Below, piece after piece: positions 2,626-6,898 of a stretch of 7,072 bases of DNA. How positions within the stretch are numbered: position 1 is the first letter of the stretch; the number at the start of each line of letters is the position of its first letter. A program made the translations under genes and the position numbers. This DNA comes from JBFLXN01 sp040755715 [NCBI: Candidatus Edwardsbacteria bacterium] (GTDB lineage Bacteria; Edwardsbacteria; AC1; JBFLXN01): positions 1 through 7,072 of the forward strand of contig JBFLXN010000142.1 of assembly GCA_040755715.1 (NCBI GenBank). The letters are read 5' to 3'. Under the pieces are notes generated by a model. It made no database searches, was not told where the DNA came from, and saw nothing but the letters and a program-made list of their open reading frames with translations.

Positions 2626-3531
2626 ATGCATCCTTTTACCCAGATTCCGCCCATCTATGACCGACTGATGAGTGACATTCCCTATGATAAATGGGTGGAA
2701 TATATTGAACAGATTCTGAAACAATTATCTTGTAAGCCAAAGAAGATTTTGGACTTGGCTTGCGGCACCGGGACCGTTGCTTTCTTACTCATCAAAAGAG
2801 GTTATAAAGTTGTCGGAGTTGACTCTTCTGAAGGAATGCTAAATGAAGCAGAGCGTAAAAGTAAAAACGAAAAATTACCTCTAGACCTCATTCATTCCGA
2901 AATGCAGAATTTTCGTCTGCGGGAAAAGGTTGAATTGGCTATTTGTCTCTTTGATAGTTTAAATTATCTCTTAAAAGAGAAAGATTTGGAAAACACTTTC
3001 TGGTGTGTATTTGAGGTTCTTACTTCTGATGGAATCTTCATCTTTGATATGAATACCGAATATGGCCTTTCTAGCTATTGGGGTGAGAATATTTATGTTA
3101 AAGAACAGTCTGGACTTTTCTCTGTCTGGCAGAACCGTTATGACCAAAAGAGTGGTATAGCCACTTTGAGAATTACTATCTTTGCCGAAGAGACCTGTCC
3201 CGACCTGTCCGTTGTGCCAGCCTGCGGAGCCCAACCTGTCCGTTGGCTCCGATGCTTGCCCAACGGTCAGGACGGTCAGAATGGAAGTGGGAACGGATTC
3301 TACCGACGCTATGAAGAATTGCACCGAGAGAGAGCCTATACCAATGAAGAAATAAAAGAATTGCTAAAAAAAGCCAATTTTCAAGACATATCTTTTTTCA
3401 AACATAGGACTTTTATTCCACCAACATCAACCACTACCCGCATTATGGTGGTGGCCAGAAAAGGGAGTAATGCCAAAAATCTTACGAAAACCACGGAAGC
3501 ACTGAAGAAAGGAGACACTTTACATTATTAG
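2626..3531 (+). CDS. Class I SAM-dependent methyltransferase with repeat-derived insert and tail
   Basis: This 301-residue protein probably transfers a methyl group from S-adenosylmethionine to an unknown small molecule or macromolecule. Motif I is ILDLACGTGT (41-50), the acidic end of strand 2 is D66 in VGVDSS, and later strand motifs are AICLFDSLNYLL (105-116) and GIFIFDMNT (136-144). The C-terminal YRRYEELHRERAYTNEEI (226-243) is typical of the YqeM/CcbJ-like group, which is usually near 245-250 residues. The excess here is an insert at about 190-223, rich in Cys, Pro and Gly and encoded by a hairpin repeat, and a tail after VARK (about 280-301), whose last part is encoded by another repeat arm. 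I place the start at 2626 because GGGGTGA (2609-2615) precedes it; an in-frame ATG at 2581 lies within repeat sequence. The substrate is unknown. Confidence 0.85.
   Translation: MHPFTQIPPIYDRLMSDIPYDKWVEYIEQILKQLSCKPKKILDLACGTGTVAFLLIKRGYKVVGVDSSEGMLNEAERKSKNEKLPLDLIHSEMQNFRLREKVELAICLFDSLNYLLKEKDLENTFWCVFEVLTSDGIFIFDMNTEYGLSSYWGENIYVKEQSGLFSVWQNRYDQKSGIATLRITIFAEETCPDLSVVPACGAQPVRWLRCLPNGQDGQNGSGNGFYRRYEELHRERAYTNEEIKELLKKANFQDISFFKHRTFIPPTSTTTRIMVVARKGSNAKNLTKTTEALKKGDTLHY
3193..3279. repeat. GC-rich palindromic element inserted in frame in the methyltransferase gene
   Basis: These 87 bases (29 codons) form a long imperfect hairpin. The outer arms are about 3193-3214 (ending GACCTGTCCGTTG) and CAACGGTCAGGACGGTCAG (3261-3279). 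An inner stem pairs CGGAGCC-C-AAC (3225-3235) with GTTGGCTCCG (3242-3251). ACCTGTCCGTTG occurs as a direct repeat at 3203 and 3234. GC content is visibly above that of the flanking coding sequence. The length is a multiple of three and introduces no stop, so the reading frame continues into conserved methyltransferase sequence. The form recalls Rickettsia palindromic elements, but I see no sequence relation to them. The exact borders are uncertain by a few codons. Confidence 0.7.
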
Positions 3532-3706
3532 AGCTACCATCAGAATATTAGGTTATCAGGTGTATCAGACTATCAGGCTACCAGGTTAATCTGTATTCTC
3601 TGATCCTCTGATAATCTGATATCCTGATTTCTCAATATCTTCCATCCTGATTTTCTGATAACCCGATATGCGCTTTAGCATTCCGTGCATTTCGTGTTTC
3701 CGTGGT
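3487..3706. repeat. Composite palindromic repeat, copy 2 (ACCACGGA arms, ATCAG core)
   Basis: The outer arms are ACCACGGAAGCACTGAA (3490-3506) and TTCCGTG...TTTCCGTGGT (3681-3706). The core is a run of ATCAGG/CTGAT words in opposite orientation. Its best pair is ATATTAGGTTATCAG (3545-3559) against CTGATAACCCGATAT (3655-3669), 13 of 15 positions matching. The left arm lies inside the methyltransferase gene and encodes part of its last 15 residues. The right arm ends 15 bases before the endonuclease Q start. No gene or transposase is present. Confidence 0.7.
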
Positions 3707-3721
3707 CAGAAAGGAAAAACC

Positions 3722-4987
3722 ATGCCTAAGTTTATCGCCGACTTTCATTTACATTCTAAATATAGCCGAGCCACTAGCAGTGATATGGATATAGAAAACT
3801 TATCTCGCTGGGCGAAAACAAAAGGGATTACTCTATTAGGCACAGGCGATTTTACCCATCCAAATTGGGTAAGAGAACTCAAAGAGAAACTTAAACCAGT
3901 AGGCAACGGCCTATATCAGTTTTCTAAAGGTGAAGAGGAAACCTATTTTATCCTGACGGCGGAAGTGAATAATATTTTCACTAAAGAAGGAAAAACCCGT
4001 CGGATTCACAATATAATTTTTGCTCCATCTTTTGAAGTAGTGGACAAGATTAACTATCAGTTGGGGAAATTTGGTATCTTAACCGCTGATGGTAGACCGG
4101 TTCTTTCCTTCTTCGCTTCTCGTTTAGTAGAAATGGTCTTAGACATTTCTCCTGAATGTTTAATTGTACCAGCTCACATCTGGACTCCCCATTTTTCTCT
4201 TTTTGGTGCCAATGCGGGATTTGATAGAATTGAAGAGTGTTTTGAGGAACAAACAAAAAATATCTTTGCCTTAGAAACCGGACTCTCCTCAGATCCAGCG
4301 ATGAACTGGCGACTTTCTGCCTTAGACCGTTATTCTCTAATTTCTAATTCCGATGCACATTCACCTAGTAGAATTGGTAGAGAAGCCAATGTCTTTAATT
4401 GCCAACTTTCTTACCCCGAAATTGTGGATGTCCTGAAAAAGAAAGACAAAAATAGATTTCTTTATACGATAGAATTTTTTCCCCAAGAAGGTAAATACCA
4501 TTTTGACGGACACCGAAACTGCCAGACCAGAATTTCGCCGACAGAAGCCAGATTGAACAATAACCTCTGTCCGGCTTGCGGGAAAAAAATCACTGTAGGA
4601 GTGATGCATCGCTTGGAAAATCTGGCTGATAGAGAAGAAGGAATAGTTTCATCAAATGCTATCCCTTTCAAAAATCTTATTCCACTAGAAGAAATTATTG
4701 CTGATGTTCTTGATCTGGGGGTAAAGACGACTACAGTAGAGAATGAATATCAAAAATTGATTAAAAATTTTGACAATGAGTTTAATGTCCTCTTAGAATT
4801 ACCCCAGAAAGCCCTTGCTTCTGTGACCAGCAAAGAAATCGCTGAAGGAATCATAAATGTTCGTGAAGGAAAAGTGGAGATTCTGCCGGGTTATGATGGT
4901 GAATACGGGAAGATCAAAATTGCCAGAGAGGAAAAAGCGAAAGAAATTTCTAAAGAAGAAACCAAAGGACAACTGAAGTTATTTTAG
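3722..4987 (+). CDS. Endonuclease Q (PHP-domain repair nuclease for deaminated DNA)
   Basis: This 421-residue protein resembles EndoQ, which nicks DNA 5' of deoxyuridine, hypoxanthine, xanthine or abasic sites. The N-terminal PHP metal site shows DFHLHS (D7, H9, H11), GTGDFTHP (D43, H46), AEV (E81), H96, PAHIW (H152) and NSDAHS (D211, H213). A zinc-binding module follows: GHRNC (C267) and CPACGKK (C283, C286). It is followed by HRLENLADR (296-304) and a helical C-terminal region. The final five residues, QLKLF (417-421), fit the bacterial sliding-clamp binding consensus. EndoQ is known from Thermococcales, some methanogens and a minority of bacteria. Such proteins are often mislabelled as UvrD helicase or PHP phosphoesterase. 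The start at 3722 follows AGAAAGGA (3708-3715); the ATG 54 bases upstream lies inside a repeat arm and would add 18 residues before the conserved start. No repair partner is adjacent. Confidence 0.88.
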   Translation: MPKFIADFHLHSKYSRATSSDMDIENLSRWAKTKGITLLGTGDFTHPNWVRELKEKLKPVGNGLYQFSKGEEETYFILTAEVNNIFTKEGKTRRIHNIIFAPSFEVVDKINYQLGKFGILTADGRPVLSFFASRLVEMVLDISPECLIVPAHIWTPHFSLFGANAGFDRIEECFEEQTKNIFALETGLSSDPAMNWRLSALDRYSLISNSDAHSPSRIGREANVFNCQLSYPEIVDVLKKKDKNRFLYTIEFFPQEGKYHFDGHRNCQTRISPTEARLNNNLCPACGKKITVGVMHRLENLADREEGIVSSNAIPFKNLIPLEEIIADVLDLGVKTTTVENEYQKLIKNFDNEFNVLLELPQKALASVTSKEIAEGIINVREGKVEILPGYDGEYGKIKIAREEKAKEISKEETKGQLKLF

Positions 4988-4993
4988 CGTGAA

Positions 4994-5170
4994 ACCACAG
5001 AAATATTTACCACGGAAGCACGGAATAATGAATATGAAATAGATTGAAATTGGTAGAAACTTATTGTCATGCCTTAGGCAGATCCGCCTTTGGCGGAAAA
5101 TTTATTGTTTTTTGCCACTAATTTCCATCTATGTCTATAAATTTCCAATAATTTTTGTGTCTCCGTGGTT
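4994..5170. repeat. Composite palindromic repeat, copy 3 (ACCACGGA arms)
   Basis: The outer arm ACCACGGAAGCACGGAA (5009-5025), preceded by a degenerate ACCACAGAAA at 4994, faces TTTTTGTGTCTCCGTGGTT (5152-5170). Inside, AGATTGAAATTGGT (5041-5054) pairs imperfectly with ACTAATTTCCATCT (5117-5130). The centre holds two tight GC-rich hairpins, TGCC-TTA-GGCA (5070-5080) and TCCGCC-TTT-GGCGGA (5083-5097). The element starts within 10 bases of the endQ stop and ends 16 bases before the HIT start, occupying nearly the whole spacer. It has no coding capacity. Confidence 0.7.
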
Positions 5171-5714: not shown

Positions 5715-6870
5715 ACGCATCAAACGTGTTGCTAAGAACATCGTCGCCACAAAGAGGAAAGGAACAGATTTAGTAGTGGTAGTTTCCGCTATGGGAGATA
5801 CCACCGACGAATTGCTAAATTTAACTGAAGAAATCACCTCTAATCCACCAAAGCGTGAAATGGATATGCTCCTTTCAACTGGCGAAAGAATTTCTATTGC
5901 ACTTCTTTCAATGGCGATAAATGTCTTAGGCGAAAAGGCTGTCTCCTTCACCGGCTCACAAGTAGGAATTATCACCGATACCAATCATACTAGAGCCAAG
6001 ATTCTGAAAGTAAAAGCTCACAGAATCCATCAGTCACTGGCTGAGGGGAAGATACCCATCGTCGCAGGATTTCAAGGTGTCAGTGAAGAAAAAGAAATTA
6101 CCACCCTGGGTCGAGGGGGCTCAGATACGACGGCAGTAGCCCTGGCCACTGCTCTTGAAGCAAAAGAATGTGAAATATATACTGATGTTAAAGGAATCTT
6201 TACCGCTGACCCGAGAATCGTTCCTTCTGCTCACAAGTTATCTTGTGTCTCCTATGATGAGATGTCAGAAATGACCAGTTTAGGGGCAAAAGTCTTACAT
6301 CCACGGGCAGTAGAAATTGCCGCCAAGTATAAAATACCATTGCAGGTGCGTTCCAGTTTTTCCTCAGAAAAAGGCACTAAAGTTACAGAAATAGACGAAA
6401 TAGAAAAGGTAAGAGTTAGAGGTATTGCTTTTGACGAAAAGATTGTGATGTTGACACTCTGCCGCGTGCCCCGGCAACTACACAGCCTTTCGCAAATTGT
6501 TACCCAACTGGCTGAACGAGGAATTTCCCTTAGGTCATTTTCTCACGGTGCCAGTGGTGGTAGAACTGTAGACCTGCTATTTATTGTGCCTGAAGAAGAA
6601 TTGGACGAGTCTTTGGCGGTGTTGAATACAGGAGCAAGAAAATTCAAGGCCAAAGAGGTAAGAGTAAACAAGGAAGTCGGCCTAGTCTCGCTAATTGGCA
6701 CCGGCGTGGGAAGAGATGCAAAAATATTAGCCAGGATGTTACACACCATGGCGAAAAATAAAGTCCATATTGAAGCAGTATTTACTTCAGAAATAAGAAT
6801 TACCTGCATTATCAAAAAGCAAAAAGTAAAACAAATCGTCAGAGCCTTGCATAAGAATTTTGATTTATGA
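5665..6870 (+). CDS. lysC: Aspartate kinase (aspartokinase)
   Basis: This 401-residue enzyme phosphorylates L-aspartate with ATP, the first step toward lysine, methionine, threonine and diaminopimelate. The kinase domain shows KYGGSSVAN (7-15), [15 protein letters not shown] (37-51), STGERIS (71-77), GRGGSDTTA (149-157), [13 protein letters not shown] (172-184) and [14 protein letters not shown] (212-225). Two ACT domains follow at about 258-330 and 338-401, the second ending with SEIRITCII. The length fits a monofunctional, feedback-regulated aspartokinase. ACT1 has [12 protein letters not shown] where many homologues have a GxPDxPG turn, so its effector response may differ. The start lies inside the 3' end of the HIT gene; an in-frame stop at 5647 excludes earlier starts and K7 excludes later ones. 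No good ribosome binding site precedes it. No other lysine-pathway gene is visible. Confidence 0.95.
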
Positions 6871-6898
6871 AAACCACGGAATCACTGAAACACGGAAA
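6871..6898. repeat. Repeat arm of the ACCACGGA family, copy 4 (partner arm not seen)
   Basis: AAACCACGGAATCACTGAAA followed by CACGGAAA starts immediately after the lysC stop codon. It matches the left arms at 3490 and 5009. No inverted TCCGTGGT arm appears in the remaining 170 bases, so the copy is either truncated or continues beyond the window. Confidence 0.6.

Follow-up and report, generated by a model that had tools for sequence, protein, structure and literature searches.

A SAM-dependent methyltransferase gene in the window analysed here (the whole stretch of DNA, 7,072 nt in length) contains an extra segment that is a lineage-specific in-frame coding palindrome, located at a permissive turn of the enzyme and unlike the inserts of other homologues. 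Its origin is, in our tentative view, best explained by the gain of a palindromic element in frame at this turn, much as is known for Rickettsia palindromic elements (RPEs). The gene and the segment are located as follows:

2626-3531, plus strand: SAM-dependent methyltransferase gene (Pfam Methyltransf_25, E 6.3e-17)
3193-3291, plus strand: in-frame extra segment relative to homologues, 99 nt / 33 aa, translated as TCPDLSVVPACGAQPVRWLRCLPNGQDGQNGSG

Extent, frame and composition of the insert

The methyltransferase ORF comprises 301 codons, from an ATG at 2626 to a TAG stop, and is intact apart from the insert; the best fold matches of its product in the PDB are 1y8c and 3d2l. The ends of the insert were set with homologue L005, whose turn is the most suitable template for the ancestral one (FAEENGMWRRYFEE against FAEE, the insert and then NGFYRRYEE), and the flanking codons are GAG (3190-3192) before it and AAC GGA TTC (3292-3300) after it. 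For a native turn of one Gly only, the homologues place the end of the insert at 3294, and otherwise at 3291. The preliminary description had delimited a palindromic element of 87 bases, which fits the hairpin core described below, and the extra segment itself is slightly longer (3193-3291, 99 nt, 33 residues). What it had said of the gene holds: the segment is in frame, contains no stop and leaves conserved residues in place on both sides, with near-invariant or fully invariant positions such as D65, D140, E230, H232 and R271 retained in a 49-row alignment. The homologue alignment that it had proposed as a check finds the 33-residue insert absent from all homologues examined.

The GC content is 0.655 over 3193-3279, compared with 0.404 for the window, in which the top 87-mer elsewhere reaches 0.62, and 0.636 over the whole insert (3193-3291), in a methyltransferase gene with a GC content of 0.41. 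The result is a sharp GC step, about 99 nt long, inside a window of 0.40 GC. The encoded peptide contains three Cys and a Gly-rich tail. An antisense ORF (2971-3324) runs across the insert, and progenitor coding palindromes are predicted, in an excerpt of PMC2996958, to have such an antisense ORF.

Several other readings of the segment were set aside. Its open frames (all three forward frames, with two stops in one reverse frame) are ordinary given that the used frame is open (P = 0.47). In programmed translational bypass, take-off and landing codons match at both ends of the element; here, by eye, the codons GAA GAG before and AGT GGG AAC GGA TTC after the insert show no match, and a hop element was rejected. 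Inteins and self-splicing introns are longer than 99 nt, and the segment is too short to be either. No in-frame target duplication was found at the insert by eye, the nearest pair being GAAGAG (3187) and GAAGTG (3284), which lie 97 nt apart and do not keep the frame.

A nested hairpin built from repeated words

The hairpin and the words from which the segment is built are:

3195-3279, no strand assigned: 31-bp imperfect nested hairpin, with outer arms 3195-3221 and 3254-3279 and an inner hairpin at 3225-3251
3193-3200, plus strand: word ACCTGTCC, copy 1
3203-3210, plus strand: word ACCTGTCC, copy 2, 10 nt after copy 1
3234-3241, plus strand: word ACCTGTCC, copy 3, in the inner hairpin and mostly in its loop
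3263-3280, minus strand: two degenerate inverted copies of the ACCTGTCC unit, read on the minus strand as CCTGACCGT and TCTGACCGT

As DNA, the hairpin has a minimum free energy of -25.8 kcal/mol and a z of -3.88, with 0/200 shuffles as stable, in agreement with the palindromic core first described, whose coordinates fit the predicted pairs (3195-3279). The RNA fold of 3193-3291 has a z of -4.14, again with none of 200 shuffles as stable. When 110-nt windows across the 7 kb were compared (40 shuffles each), the one at 3181 had the lowest energy of 233 and ranked third by z, behind those at 3541 and 5941. The arms 3200-3221 and 3254-3275 are 82% complementary over 22 nt, and this 22-nt inverted pair is accompanied by repeat units of 9-16 nt, namely three copies of RACCTGTCC (D1) and two of a 16-mer (D2). 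The description of the segment as GC-rich with repeated words is matched by the three ACCTGTCC copies and the GC values above. Neither ACCTGTCC nor its complement was found in the rest of the window, and when the 99 nt were dinucleotide-shuffled 5000 times, 6 of the shuffles contained some 8-mer at least three times. A search of Rfam over 2900-3600 returned just two sub-threshold matches far below the gathering score, rliD (E 0.033, 3281-3399) and the AilA thermometer (E 0.85), both taken as chance.

The insert as a predicted loop at a permissive turn

An AlphaFold2 model of the methyltransferase, built with 48 homologues and numbered without the first Met, has a mean pLDDT of 88.7, with 228/300 residues at 90 or above. 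The insert is predicted as a low-confidence loop (pLDDT 58, 59 and 51 for residues 191-200, 201-210 and 211-220) at a beta-hairpin turn between the well-predicted strands 177-188 and 224-235, in keeping with the loop for which structure prediction had been suggested as a check; the C-terminal 20 residues are also poorly predicted. The enzyme presumably still works despite the insert.

The length of this turn was compared in a set of 110 loci, consisting of 80 of the 93 loci confirmed in a scan of contigs, which also formed the first turn comparison (L075 stops before the region), and 30 from genome searches. Two of these (L077 and L248) were dropped from the count, and L001 and L216 are one gene counted twice. 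A separate alignment, A1, comprises 48 of 58 loci taken from the 110, the omitted ones being L213, L223, L226, L227, L231, L243, L245, L009, L248 (partial) and L001 (identical to L216). Measured from the strand Phe to the conserved Glu, the turn has 7-16 residues in 97/108 homologues, 20-81 in the remaining 11 and 44 in the window protein; since long turns occur in 11/108 homologues, the site is permissive. The turn of L077, long and acidic, would be a twelfth. The 11 long turns consist mostly of acidic runs and are found, by record title, in Lachnospiraceae, other Clostridia and unclassified bacteria. Their DNA is unstructured (z of -1.49 to 1.37, against -2.71 for the window insert on the same measure), and their loop GC exceeds the gene GC by at most 0.09, compared with 0.20 in the window gene.

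Relatives of the window and the search for further copies

The genomes that could be searched are distant from the window. The top methyltransferase identity is 44%, to Candidatus Desantisbacteria CG1_02_49_89 (L216) in the 49-row alignment, and in the nearest genomes the protein has an identity of about 35-44%, which varies with the measure. One group of genomes (G131 group), about 35-43% identical by HSP, carries a PHP gene after the methyltransferase gene in 10/10 genomes, as in the window; its turns have 11-12 residues in the nine loci measured, the tenth (L248) being partial. The PHP-like protein of the window (3722-4987), so named on our own reading, has no Pfam match at E 0.001, and reaches E 1e-100 or better in 75/300 genomes, at 43-63% identity. 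The TrpB-like protein (1021-2316) is 73-76% identical in five genomes, none of them in the G131 group, and at most 54% identical in the others listed, which suggests a distinct subgroup or gene transfer. A further gene (151-924) encodes a protein of 257 aa; its best stretch aligns with positions 166-356 of a 357-position citrate synthase profile, and we take the protein to be perhaps citryl-CoA-lyase-like.

No second copy of the hairpin was recognised in 386 distant genomes, in pattern searches of IMG/VR, or in plasmids and phages. A 116-nt query gave 17 genomes with E 0.05 or better among the 386, with scoring limited to two candidates per genome, and all of these matches are short. The best one, 23 nt in genome G326 (E 4.5e-5), covers the insert tail alone and lies in what we read as a collagen-like Gly-X-Y gene. 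The same query gave 23 genomes with E 1 or better among 59, the best at 0.028, and the hairpin pattern matched 0/62 genomes. The 14-nt word ACGGACAGGTYGGG is found in 20/386 genomes, at most three times in each, and by manual count at 22 places, compared with 21 for the reversed control; judged with their contexts, these 22 exact matches were rejected as chance or convergent. Against plasmids and phages, the insert DNA has no match at E 0.1, and the insert peptide has no match against plasmids.

Within IMG/VR, the 19- and 20-nt patterns gave no match, the pattern GGACAGGTNGNNANCCTGTCC is found in 14 stretches, and the sole match to the hairpin pattern (L353) is ordinary coding sequence. A 17-nt piece of the inner hairpin is found in 11 stretches (L260-L270), in which the similarity is no longer than about 25-40 nt: in 8/11 the part in common with the inner hairpin is about 25 nt at 92% or 40 nt at 80%, and all were rejected as chance or convergent. 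The same applies to the G145 and G185 stretches and to at least 120 further ones, with a best identity of 18 nt among the matches listed. Because the nearest genomes are distant and fast-turning repeats are not expected to be shared, these empty searches are weak evidence and neither establish nor rule out membership of a dispersed RPE-like repeat family.

As a separate observation, clusters of 4-8 ACCTGTCC or GGACAGGT words within 300 bp occur in 9/34 IMG/VR stretches (L273, L274, L277, L280, L285, L286, L293, L294 and L301). Seven of the nine contain words in both orientations, and many words are 10 nt apart. An ORF near the cluster was scanned in 7/9 cases; five of the seven carry domain sets that we read as primase or helicase type (PriCT_1/DUF3987, Prim-Pol with AAA_25, VapE-like twice and AAA_25), and the others gave Terminase_3 and no match. 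These clusters look like replication iterons with a common CCTGTCC core. Clusters of the control word were found in 8/55 stretches, of which one was scanned and lies beside a DUF5906 gene.

Neighbouring palindromes and repeats

A palindrome of similar design adjoins the methyltransferase gene:

3535-3680, no strand assigned: intergenic palindrome (RNA z -4.27, 0/200 shuffles)

It starts less than 10 nt (8 nt) beyond the methyltransferase stop and is made up of ATCAG four times and then CTGAT six times (3539-3659), with 5/8 within-arm spacings equal to 8 nt; elsewhere in the window ATCAG and CTGAT occur 5 and 6 times, respectively. When 3535-3680 was searched in 18 genomes, two (L405 and L406) gave E 0.01 or better. 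By eye, L405 (G138) contains a weak array resembling the ATCAG array, and L406 does not.

Other repeats are present in the window. AT-rich direct and inverted copies lie upstream of the methyltransferase gene, at about 2318-2592. Words of the ACCACGGAAGCAC type occur directly at 3482-3513, 5001-5032 and 6865-6896 and inverted at 3689-3706 and 5152-5170; the copy at 3482-3513 is at the 3' end of the methyltransferase gene, and the others are at gene ends or intergenic.

The like design and different words of the two palindromes, seen in one 7-kb window, suggest a process or element class in the genome and not one sequence family. A broader version of this idea, which we consider unlikely, is that the genome carries a general class of phased-word palindromes with a direct and an inverted arm, whose words differ by locus and which arise or land both intergenically (3535-3680) and in frame (3193-3291).

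How the insert may have arisen

In the model that we tentatively prefer, a short palindromic DNA element composed of phased 8-10 base words, with a direct left arm and a degenerate inverted right arm, would have been gained in frame at the permissive beta-hairpin turn of the methyltransferase, in the manner of an RPE. It would then be translated as a flexible loop with the enzyme fold kept, since its length is divisible by three and no stop occurs in the frame in use. We infer that the segment arrived as a copy of such an element and did not grow in place.

Growth in place is nevertheless a real possibility. Here, a short quasi-palindrome would have undergone slippage and template switching, by which a local word was duplicated and inverted, with frame-keeping lengths retained at a tolerant turn, and template switching is named in an excerpt of PMC6649704 as one possible mechanism for palindromes. 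The segment is built from units of 9-16 nt that recur within it in direct and inverted form, no copy was recognised elsewhere, other lineages differ in the length of the turn, and an array of a different word adjoins the gene. However, the gene has a GC content of 0.41, ACCTGTCC is absent outside the segment, and hairpin DNA is found in 0/11 of the other long turns.

It is rather improbable that the insert is an ordinary loop selected as protein, perhaps for partner or metal binding through its three Cys and Gly-rich tail, with the DNA hairpin being incidental. Longer loops at the same turn in 11/108 homologues, plus L077, and the match of the tail codons to a collagen-like gene over 23 nt would fit such a loop, but the DNA hairpin has a z of -3.9 to -4.1, the other long turns, mostly acidic, lack structure in their DNA, and the predicted confidence in the loop is low. 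An assembly error, with a repeat that belongs elsewhere joined into the contig, is very unlikely given the exact frame, the conserved residues on either side and the location at a length-variable turn. It is hardly credible that the segment comes from an array of iterons in a phage or integrative element, with the clustered CCTGTCC words that the replication origins of such elements contain: in some phage contigs ACCTGTCC does form arrays with a period of 10 nt next to genes of primase or helicase type, and L286 and L293 show the same repeat unit ACCTGTCCCG, but a same-composition control word with the common 7-mer core also forms arrays (8/55 versus 9/34), Pfam gives no mobile-element family in the six window proteins scanned (the PHP protein having no match), and the similarity is at the level of words only.

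Relation to known coding palindromes

Coding palindromes are already described, in an excerpt of PMC2996958, from Rickettsia, Wolbachia, Methanocaldococcus jannaschii and PARCEL-bearing microbes. The best comparison is with RPEs, which are about 150 bp long and form ten families (PMC10969869, in excerpt; see also PMC2635572, in excerpt). Like these, the insert is a short palindrome, located in frame in a metabolic or housekeeping gene, to which it adds a peptide (PMC10969869, in excerpt). Its size (an 85-nt core in a 99-nt segment) agrees with the palindromes of roughly 100-150 bp of the RPE type, the gene stays open after the in-frame insertion, and the insert lies where the fold can take extra residues. 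By the RPE descriptions, it is set apart in being GC-rich, 99 bp long, made of phased 8-10 nt words and known from one copy, and the homologues do not point to Rickettsiales. The RPE-like reading of the preliminary description stands for an in-frame palindrome that is absent from homologues and predicted to form a loop, and does not extend to a dispersed family, for which no second copy was found in the distant genomes searched. As far as can be seen, the insert works like an RPE insertion.

Other known systems are less similar. PARCELs share coding dyad symmetry and occur in diverse bacteria; in the same excerpt of PMC2996958 they form tandem domains of 25 residues, and the genes that contain them have no known function, whereas here there is one insert in an enzyme, and no PARCEL domain is among the Pfam matches of the whole methyltransferase at E 0.001. 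Nematomorph mitochondria also have inverted repeats within protein-coding sequence, which, as excerpted from PMC6649704, are perfect and numerous, in contrast to the imperfect and single insert. MITEs and REP elements are likewise short imperfect palindromes, and in-frame fusions of intragenic MITEs are described as not unusual (PMC10969869, in excerpt), but the insert comes without an in-frame target duplication and with no second copy recognised. Among the literature matches listed, no title concerns coding palindromes in candidate phyla, which is not proof of absence, and the titles found for the words ACCTGTCC and GGACAGGTTG are apparently unrelated.

A clear case in an apparently uncultured lineage would widen the known range of coding palindromes, and it concerns a turn that is also lengthened by other means in other bacteria. 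The adjoining array, of similar design and with a different word, offers a way to test one process for both palindromes. If the general class of phased-word palindromes were true, a process that makes DNA structure would be adding peptide loops to enzymes.
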